From Marinoscillum sp. (GTDB lineage Bacteria > Bacteroidota > Bacteroidia > Cytophagales > Cyclobacteriaceae), in the NCBI GenBank assembly GCA_024305105.1, contig JAMWZA010000021.1:1-51007 (forward strand): a stretch of DNA of 51,007 nucleotides, written 5' to 3'. Shown in pieces: positions 1,376 through 2,176 of this stretch. The first letter of the stretch is position 1; each line of letters opens with the position of its first letter. A program made the position numbers and the translations under genes. The notes beneath the pieces are model-generated. The model was not told the DNA's origin, ran no database searches, and was given only the letters and a program-made list of their open reading frames with translations.

Positions 1376-1429
1376 CATTCCCAAATCAGAACCCTGTGTT
1401 CTGGCGCGGGAAACAGTGATTGTCGCCGC

Positions 1430-1535
1430 TGATTATCGGGGACAGTTGGTGAACGCACCAACCCACTGATTATGGTGGTTGTTCCCGATAGCTATCGGGA
1501 CAGTTGGTTAGATAACCAACTTCATCAAACAACAT
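1430..1535 (+). pseudogene. Tandem 5' fragments of tRNA-His, one interrupted by a palindrome
   Basis: Just upstream of the intact tRNA-His are pieces of its 5' half. GGTGGTTGT at 1474-1482 equals the tRNA start (1536-1544), and CAGTTGGTTAGA at 1501-1512 equals its D-arm; between them lies an 18-base perfect palindrome, TCCCGATAGCTATCGGGA (1483-1500). A second D-arm-like piece, CAGTTGGTGAACGC, is at 1443-1456, preceded by TCGGGGA, a half-palindrome. Both D-arm pieces are followed by a short complement (ACCAAC or AACCAAC), so each can fold into its own hairpin. None of these can form a whole tRNA. Confidence 0.6.
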
Positions 1536-1610
1536 GGTGGTTGTAGTTCAGTTGGTTAGAACGCCTGATTGTGGTTCAGGAGGTCGCCGGTTCGAGTCCG
1601 GTCTTCCACC
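1536..1610 (+). tRNA. tRNA-His (anticodon GTG)
   Basis: The cloverleaf has a D-arm GTTC/GAAC, an anticodon stem CCTGA/TCAGG with GTG at 1571-1573, and a T-loop TTCGAGT at 1591-1597. G at 1536 can serve as the extra G-1 opposite C73 at 1610, as expected for tRNA-His. The full 3' CCA is not encoded. The acceptor stem GTGGTTG/CTTCCAC has two adjacent U-U oppositions (1541-1542 with 1604-1605), which is odd but sits in an otherwise sound fold. Confidence 0.93.
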
Positions 1611-1620
1611 CAGAGATAAC

Positions 1621-1655
1621 AAAAGCAGTTGCAGAAATGTGACTGCTTTTCTTGT
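1621..1655 (+). terminator. Hairpin terminator after tRNA-His
   Basis: AAAAGCAGT (1621-1629) pairs with ACTGCTTTT (1642-1650), followed by CTTGTTT. It sits ten bases after the tRNA and is the likely end of its transcript. Confidence 0.6.
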
Positions 1656-1683
1656 TTAAGACCTGCTGCGTTGCATTAATGTA

Positions 1684-2095
1684 TGGTTCAGGAGGTCGCC
1701 GAACTAGGCGTTCCCACCAAAGGTTGGTCCCATCATCAGGGCTTTTTATTTTATCAGTATTCTGATATCTTCATCACAGGATGCCATTCTTCGTTTATAT
1801 TCTATATTCCCCTTCTGCTGATAAATATTACAAAGGCCAAACCAATAACGTTGAAGACAGACTGAAGCGACATAATGCAGGACACGAAAAGGCCACTTCA
1901 AATGGCAGACCTTGGAGACTTATTTGGTTCACAGAAAAAGATTCCAGGAGTGAAGCTGTTAATCTGGAGAGAAAACTGAAAAACATGAATAGGGAAAAGC
2001 TAAAATCATTTATTGCTAAATACTCCTAATTTCGAGTCAAGACGAAAGCTTTGCTTGTCTTGATGCTGACCAAGGCGTCAGCATCCGGTCTTCCA
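1684..2095 (+). pseudogene. 3' half of a second tRNA-His, split by two insertions
   Basis: Three blocks, in order, match the intact tRNA-His. TGGTTCAGGAGGTCGCCG at 1684-1701 is the anticodon-stem 3' strand, variable loop and 5' T-stem. TTCGAGTC at 2031-2038 is the T-loop. CCGGTCTTCCA at 2085-2095 is the 3' T-stem and acceptor strand. The gap between blocks 1 and 2 holds the GIY-YIG gene, whose stop codon ends one base before block 2. The gap between blocks 2 and 3 holds two hairpins. With the 5' fragments upstream, a nearly complete second tRNA-His is present but torn apart around the intact copy. Confidence 0.7.
1781..2029 (+). CDS. GIY-YIG nuclease-family protein nested in a broken tRNA-His
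   Basis: This 82-residue protein is a single GIY-YIG domain of the small UPF0213/YhbQ-like type. The motif reads VYIL at residues 5-8 and YYKGQT at 16-21, followed by the conserved Arg (RLKRHN, about 27) and the metal-binding Glu (NLERKL, about 62). No DNA-binding domain is attached. Family members are predicted to cut DNA through one metal ion; the cellular role of these tiny versions is not settled. The ATG at 1781 puts the VYI motif at the usual distance. An overlapping frame at 1683-1865 has no family signal. The gene lies inside a split tRNA-His copy, and its stop codon abuts the tRNA T-loop sequence, so it may be a mobile or homing-like element targeted to the tRNA. Activity is unproved. 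Confidence 0.85.
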   Translation: MPFFVYILYSPSADKYYKGQTNNVEDRLKRHNAGHEKATSNGRPWRLIWFTEKDSRSEAVNLERKLKNMNREKLKSFIAKYS

Positions 2096-2176
2096 TCAAG
2101 ACGTTAAAGTCTTGACAGGCCCAAAAATGACAAAGTCATTTTGCCCTGACATCCGCCGGTTGGCGGATCGTCAGGG
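2038..2176. repeat. Cluster of five hairpins after the GIY-YIG gene
   Basis: Five inverted repeats follow one another: CAAGAC/GTCTTG (2038-2062), ATGCTGAC/GTCAGCAT (2063-2084), TCAAGAC/GTCTTGA (2096-2115), AAAATGAC/GTCATTTT (2124-2142) and a two-part stem CCCTGAC..CCGCC/GGCGG..GTCAGGG (2144-2176). The first and third share the same arms. The first two lie inside the broken tRNA-His copy. None is followed by a clear T-run, so they are not ordinary terminators. From 2177 to 2274 I see nothing further. Confidence 0.7.

Follow-up and report, generated by a model that had tools for sequence, protein, structure and literature searches.

A small GIY-YIG nuclease gene within a split tRNA-His copy and its tRNA-linked family in Bacteroidota

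The tRNA-His locus of the window and its gene-free alleles

The DNA analysed here, referred to as the window throughout, is a stretch of 51,007 nucleotides of contig JAMWZA010000021.1 from the draft genome of a Marinoscillum sp. (assembly GCA_024305105.1), in which an intact tRNA-His gene is followed by a second, broken copy of the same gene that encloses a small gene of the GIY-YIG nuclease type. The features of this locus are as follows:

1416..1533, + strand: decayed, incomplete copies of the tRNA-His 5' part (direct repeats 1472-1482 = 1534-1544 and 1501-1512 = 1549-1560)
1537..1611, + strand: intact tRNA-His (ARAGORN; tRNA search of the window's own genome)
1618..1657, + strand: terminator-like hairpin and T run 3' of tRNA-His (inverted repeat 1618-1629/1642-1653; T-rich end)
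1684..1701, + strand: left part of the second tRNA-His copy, tRNA positions 36-53 (exact 18-base repeat)
1702..1734, + strand: additional T-loop sequence of the second copy, present in congener G002 as well (alignment with L038)
1735..2033, + strand: 299-bp insert relative to the ORF-less G002 allele (ends ambiguous by a few bases)
1781..2029, + strand: putative GIY-YIG nuclease gene, 82 residues (ORF; Pfam; AlphaFold2)
2031..2038, + strand: T-loop block TTCGAGTC of the second tRNA-His copy (exact 8-base repeat of 1591-1598)
2039..2083, + strand: hairpin-bearing insert in the T-loop of the second copy, absent from G002 (inverted repeats)
2084..2095, + strand: 3' block TCCGGTCTTCCA of the second tRNA-His copy, tRNA positions 61-72 (exact 12-base repeat)
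2096..2117, + strand: hairpin after the second copy, present in the window and in G002 (inverted repeat 2096-2105/2106-2115)

The intact gene (anticodon gtg) is the sole tRNA-His among the 28 tRNAs found in the draft genome, and the D arm of one of the decayed 5' copies upstream of it contains the palindrome CCCGATAGCTATCGGG (1484-1499). The left part of the second copy, TGGTTCAGGAGGTCGCCG, exactly repeats tRNA-His positions 1572-1589. It had been proposed in an earlier note on this DNA that three blocks of tRNA-His lie in the right order at 1684-1701, 2031-2038 and 2085-2095, and this is borne out, with the third block really 12 bases long and starting at 2084; the 82-residue gene occupies the first gap, as the note had described, and its stop codon ends one base short of the T-loop block. 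A collinear match of tRNA-His to positions 1612-2260 scored 30, a value reached by none of 1000 dinucleotide shuffles (mean 7.4, maximum 20), and elsewhere in the window 649-bp pieces taken from both strands at 148 places, 296 in all, scored at most 22. When the blocks past the start of the ORF are taken alone they score 19, and since this is equalled in 2 of 1000 shuffles, the right-hand blocks are the weaker half of the match.

The same locus, downstream of a dihydroorotase-like gene, was compared in five congeners (G001 to G005). G002 possesses the tRNA-His, the terminator and the same partial tRNA-His copy with no ORF, and the presence of this pseudo-tRNA in a gene-free state supports the observation of a split copy independently. 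In G002 the copy reads through CCCATC into GAGACCGATCTTCCATCAAGACG, whereas in the window CCCATC is followed by the 299 bp that include the ORF and then by GAGTC; by local alignment the two genomes are identical at 47 of 51 positions on the left (1684-1734) and at 27 of 31 on the right of the insert, where the match resumes past the further hairpin insert of about 45 bases in the window. The site taken by the ORF is thus C^GAG, in the T-loop of a pseudo-tRNA also present in congeners. Partial tRNA-His copies that lack the ORF and carry extra hairpin sequence in the T-loop were also found in G003 and G005, while G004 shows one tRNA and a terminator as far as its contig end, and no tRNA-His was found at the corresponding locus of G001. 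The difference between the window and G002 is compatible with a gain in the window genome or a loss elsewhere, two histories that cannot be told apart with certainty. As a partial copy without the gene exists in G002, G003 and G005, the duplication seen in the window need not have come with the ORF, and the earlier suggestion that the intact tRNA-His is a regenerated copy is for this reason only half right.

The protein encoded at 1781-2029 contains a GIY-YIG domain (Pfam E 1.3e-16) that spans residues 3-72, and its active-site residues Y6, Y17, G19, R27 and E63 are conserved in 203 to 209 of 210 proteins. AlphaFold2 (pLDDT 95.1) predicts a bare GIY-YIG domain, and the protein has no region past the catalytic part. 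Its nearest solved structures are UPF0213, then SLX1, a cutter of branched DNA, and then I-TevI; homing-endonuclease models matched weakly or under the cut-off, and a PHROG endonuclease matched weakly (E 1.1e-4). Purifying selection on the family is indicated by a median dN/dS of 0.27 in 48 pairs, many of which are interdependent, with 41 pairs under 0.5 and three over 1. A phage origin was rejected, as 50,697 phage records gave five weak matches with no T-even phage among them, and none of the 62 pattern matches from an IMG/VR scan that used three close proteins (A3) was confirmed as a relative.

Distribution, array layout and targets of the family

Six places in the window genome match PF01541, and one frame of 601 residues that does so is taken to be UvrC. 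The tRNA-linked members are the window gene (His), L001 (Leu), which lies between a decayed 5' tRNA-Leu copy and an intact tRNA-Leu, and L005 (Met), in which 3' pieces of tRNA-Met come after the gene. A run of N at L005:1245-1343, between two repeat units of the tRNA-Met type, perhaps represents a further tandem copy that was lost in assembly or masked. Two further loci, L002 and L004, group with other GIY-YIG groups on the tree; they belong to another small GIY-YIG group with no tRNA close by, and L004 sits among dispersed CTTCGCTCGCAATGAC-type repeats, with the CATTGCGAGC motif occurring in only 3 of 30 control loci of its type.

Beyond this genome, the window protein has matches in 36 of 59 relatives, and of 198 Bacteroidota genomes 126 are matched at E 1e-8 by a profile built from 26 members (A2). 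For the survey, loci were gathered as the best matches of several searches together with 80 picked from the A2 matches listed; window repeats, dihydroorotase loci and tRNA loci of the window's own genome were excluded (L003, which is the window, L007, L037-L047 and L078-L105), and arrays with identical protein and tRNA were counted once. This gave 184 distinct arrays (250 ORFs), of which four fall into other GIY-YIG groups (L002, L004, L034 and L036) and 180, almost all from Bacteroidota, constitute the family. In this strong-match and non-random sample, an intact tRNA lies within 150 bp of 145 of the 180 family arrays and within 500 bp of 156, always on the same strand as the array (156 of 156), a strongly positive outcome for the check suggested in the note, which was to look for small GIY-YIG genes near tRNA genes; in an earlier, smaller set made up of each relative's best match, weak ones included (L008-L036), a tRNA was within 500 bp in 24 of 29 cases. 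The linked tRNAs cover 17 amino acids by ARAGORN label, with Ser (26), Met (22), Pro (17) and Asn (15) as the commonest and one call that has no assigned amino acid. The 24 arrays with no tRNA within 500 bp include eight at contig edges. Tight linkage to tRNA genes as a general trait of all small GIY-YIG genes was ruled out by a control of 30 sister loci of the L004 type from the same genome set, in which a tRNA was found within 150 bp in none and within 500 bp in one (at about 435 bp). The observation is far more general than one genome. Three members come from contigs with the labels Desulfobulbaceae (L131), Beckwithbacteria (L133) and Verrucomicrobia (L136) and reflect either real spread or mislabelled bins, and L113 (PBTY01000113.1, from a MAG titled Rickettsiales) agrees in position and match with G004:C94 of a window congener in a Bacteroidota set, so that its label seems wrong.

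Layouts could be classed in 154 arrays. The commoner type I (128 arrays) consists of an intact tRNA, a short spacer that often holds a terminator-like hairpin, the ORF and a 3' partial copy of the tRNA, and type II (26 arrays) of a 5' partial copy, the ORF and the intact tRNA; a partial copy with a chain score of at least 15 is present in 103 of the type I and 22 of the type II arrays. At least a short partial copy emerged from the flank alignments in 144 of the 154 arrays, in keeping with what the note had predicted for related loci, and none was seen in the remaining 10, among them the tRNA-His member L108. The point at which the copy starts just after the ORF is typical of the target: position 55, in the T-loop, for His (the window and L111), 52-57 for Leu, mostly 19-31 for Met, mostly 13-22 for Pro, and 17 in three of four Ala cases; copies in type II often stop at tRNA positions 29-44, within the anticodon arm. 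A T-loop break, in line with the T-arm cut site proposed in the note, is seen in the window and in part of the other tRNA-His members, but lineages such as Met, Pro and Leu break elsewhere. Units often measure about 320-440 bp and hold one gene with no integrase of their own. Two to five ORFs per array occur in 42 of 184 arrays, a few of which (for example L144 and L155) are a single frame-broken ORF, and the tandem ORFs of some arrays (such as L064, L065 and L175) encode identical or near-identical proteins.

The partial copies are themselves interrupted, and 100 such interruptions fall in the T arm (41), the anticodon arm (22), the D arm (19) and elsewhere (18). A perfect stem of at least 6 bp is present in 64 of them, against 5 of 100 after shuffling each insert, and 39 are insertions that lose at most one base. 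Hairpins resembling CCCGATAGCTATCGGG replace or extend arms of partial tRNA copies; the palindrome itself occurs at eight places in the 5.76-Mb genome, five of which adjoin tRNA genes (one each for His, Cys and Thr, two for Met), with no tRNA within the stretch read at the other three, and a reversed control sequence occurs nowhere in the genome. Same-strand partial copies (at least 11 exact bases within 500 bp) accompany 13 of the 28 tRNA genes of the window genome, and a nuclease gene is present at only three. The partial tRNA copies may be what cutting at tRNA loops, time and again followed by repair, has left behind, and they are the least explained part of the pattern. Of 239 ORFs, 31 have exact inverted repeats of at least 10 bases at their ends (control: 2 of 239), several being terminator-like or repeated units; they are clear for the rnpB and integrase members described below, and the window is not among the best 25 of the 31. 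Terminal inverted repeats were consequently rejected as a general feature of the family, as only a minority of ORFs has them.

On a weakly resolved tree of 176 proteins (86 columns), the tRNA isotype changes 52 times, against 110.1 times with shuffled labels. Among the 122 rows for which both labels are available, the count is 38 changes for isotype (88.6 on average after shuffling, and never under 82) and 66 for host family (81.5 on average, and never under 76), and sister pairs have the isotype in common in 31 of 38 cases, 13 of which join the same isotype in different families; one pair has the same family and different isotypes. A nuclease lineage thus tends, as far as this tree indicates, to keep its tRNA across host families, a pattern that suits homing; isotype is kept better than host family. 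Such fidelity could also come from the homology of the carried tRNA fragment alone, or from old vertical descent.

Loci without a tRNA were scanned with Rfam, which revealed rnpB and tmRNA sites. Three genomes of one genus, G123 (L298; L213:885-1544), G112 (L300; L166, on the reverse strand) and G219 (L299), carry the ORF within the P3 hairpin of the sole RNase P RNA gene found. L213 starts this hairpin with the 5' strand GGAAAGCCGGGTAATCGC, after which come a 24-base arm, the ORF, the complement of the arm and GAGGAAAGTCCGG, and the two arms pair in a ViennaRNA fold; the exact arm of L166 is 19 bases long. The P1 ends of these rnpB genes still pair and covary by eye (GGAAAGCC/GGCTTTCC and GGAAAGTC/GACTTTCC), and five other congeners of the same genus have a short P3 hairpin with the ORF absent (5 of 8 rnpB genes). 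Alleles with and without the gene at one site are thereby available for the tRNA-His pseudo-copy (G002 without) and for rnpB P3 (three with and five without, in one genus). A further member (L128) lies about 60 bp upstream of a tmRNA, with no partial copy seen. Four others (L029, L199, L212 and L225) sit inside interrupted frames at four different places, flanked by inverted repeats; Pfam integrase domains lie beside three of them, the tested piece of L029 gave no match, and by our reading the frame at L029 is an integrase gene too. In L029, L212 and L225 the ATG of the ORF overlaps the TGA stop of the interrupted integrase-like frame.

A homing-type explanation and its alternatives

Available evidence suggests that the window gene is probably a member of a free-standing, homing-type selfish family of Bacteroidota that targets structured RNA genes, chiefly those of tRNAs. 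The small GIY-YIG enzyme would cut a tRNA gene at a loop, which for the window lineage would be the T-loop, and the break would be mended by homologous recombination from a locus already bearing the gene, in which the ORF stands between an intact tRNA and a partial copy of that tRNA. Because these two flank the ORF, such a donor would offer homology for both broken ends, so that the ORF would be copied in and an intact tRNA left; the same cuts, when repaired between adjacent copies, could generate tandem arrays and strings of partial tRNA copies. The homing-like character proposed in the earlier note fits this pattern, by which the reading appears well supported, and it is the cutting, the recombination step and the movement of the gene that we infer from sequence comparison.

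Several observations count against homing. The three tRNA-linked proteins of the window genome are only about 34% identical to that of the window, so that no recent spread within the genome is seen; the predicted bare catalytic domain, with no DNA-binding part, leaves specificity unexplained; and simple homing does not explain the hairpins in the partial copies. The arrays with no tRNA within 500 bp, those with no partial copy, and the ORF-less copies of the congeners, by which duplication is possible without the gene, also weigh on this side. The family likely has its place among free-standing homing genes, and there is a real chance that it forms a class of its own. Such a class, which we advance tentatively, would consist of minimal mobile genes of about 300 bp in the loops of structured RNA genes, each nuclease lineage keeping to a single RNA. 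A DNA hairpin that the RNA gene can form may guide the bare SLX1-like domain to its target, the carried fragment would supply homology for repair, and partial tRNA copies and palindromic hairpins would be scars of the enzyme's action. The tRNA members would then persist beside a rescued intact copy and the rnpB member in the only copy found of an essential ribozyme.

The hairpins could alternatively be what the enzyme recognizes. A structure-specific nuclease of the SLX1 kind might act on branched or cruciform DNA formed by tRNA genes, RNase P RNA genes and palindromes, the linkage then resulting from cutting and faulty repair at hairpins. This is in line with the bare domain and its proximity to SLX1, the nearest solved fold after UPF0213, with the excess of stems in the interruptions, which fall mostly in tRNA arms, and with the long inverted repeats at rnpB P3 and in some integrase inserts. 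However, each lineage keeps to one tRNA species. A purely structural enzyme would not need this, even if carried homology could bring it about as well, and we consider the explanation unlikely.

Purifying selection, tandem arrays and the precedent of SegB speak for a further reading, in which the host keeps the nuclease as a useful gene that amplifies or repairs tRNA genes, for instance in order to withstand defences that cut tRNAs, much as SegB serves phage T6. Nearly all arrays, however, multiply partial tRNA copies and not intact tRNAs, presence among congeners is patchy, and sites in rnpB and integrase genes make no sense for tRNA dosage, which renders such a function rather improbable.

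The tRNA 3' ends are classic attachment sites, and the type I layouts duplicate just this part, as would be seen in remnants of integrating elements such as islands or prophages. Against this stand the small one-gene units with no integrase of their own, the breaks in D and anticodon arms, the duplication of the 5' part in type II and the rnpB P3 site, and the reading was rejected as very improbable. Chance, or an ordinary tRNA neighbourhood, finds some room in the two right-hand blocks, which taken alone are equalled in 2 of 1000 shuffles, but it scarcely accounts for a whole match that no shuffle reaches, nor for 145 of 180 arrays close to a tRNA when the zones up to 150 bp from its 28 tRNAs make up only about 0.18% of the window genome, with no opposite-strand array among 156, and it too was rejected.

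Two further candidates were tried. A group I intron was rejected, as Rfam detected no intron family at 33 loci (17, including the window, L003, at gathering scores and 16 at E 0.01), and an rRNA intervening sequence was rejected, as the window locus is a tRNA-His and the Rfam-scanned loci gave no rRNA match.

Significance and comparison with known systems

If the homing-type explanation is correct, a common and apparently unnoticed selfish family attacks highly conserved genes across a bacterial phylum and survives by means of spare pieces of its target. This would help to account for the rows of partial tRNA copies that surround tRNA genes in Bacteroidota and would extend attack of the SegB type on tRNA genes from phages to chromosomes, and the family would provide a bare GIY-YIG domain with defined sites on which its targeting could be tested. 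In the rnpB members a protein gene lies inside the gene of an essential ribozyme RNA. In the open PMC literature, as represented by titles and abstract openings with few subscription papers, the matches listed held no recognisable description of tRNA-embedded GIY-YIG genes in bacterial chromosomes, nor of an ORF in RNase P RNA.

Partial resemblances are found in several systems. The rtT repeats are tandem repeats behind E. coli tyrT in which each unit has a tRNA 3' end; like the window family they form tandem units downstream of a tRNA, but to our knowledge they hold no nuclease gene. Free-standing homing genes of mitochondria carry a replacement gene end and likewise restore the interrupted gene with a spare end, although they do so in organelle protein genes and not in bacterial tRNA genes.

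The closest known case, likened by description and not by sequence, appears to be SegB, a phage protein that is longer and has a further region beyond its catalytic domain, unlike the bare domain of the window protein. The available parts of two papers describe SegB as a free-standing GIY-YIG homing endonuclease of T-even phages whose gene lies within a tRNA cluster (PMC13096335; PMC2988022). It cuts inside tRNA genes, with the motif RAWTSGAAC, and segB and tRNA-Tyr are amplified together in tandem by recombination in a SegB-dependent manner, according to the available part of one of these (PMC13096335). By our reading, the motif would be the complement of a T-loop-like GTTCSAWTY. As far as those sources extend, SegB and the window family have in common a GIY-YIG gene among tRNA genes, tandem amplification and many isotypes; they differ in that SegB is phage-borne and the window family chromosomal, and in that the available part of the SegB paper describes no flanking partial tRNA copy and no rnpB or integrase site (PMC13096335), all three of which the window family has.

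For the rnpB members, the nearest parallel would seem to be rRNA inserts that carry an ORF, such as the 23S intervening sequence of Coxiella with S23p (PMC4990558) and the rRNA inserts of CPR bacteria, which carry LAGLIDADG genes and are often group-I-intron-like (PMC11270868), both as given in the available parts of these papers. On this partial view of the sources, such inserts differ from the window family in their RNA genes and their proteins (S23p and LAGLIDADG), and from its 33 Rfam-scanned loci in their often intron-like nature; what they have in common with the rnpB members is a protein gene within a structured RNA gene, which in rnpB occupies a hairpin loop whose ends pair as a stem.
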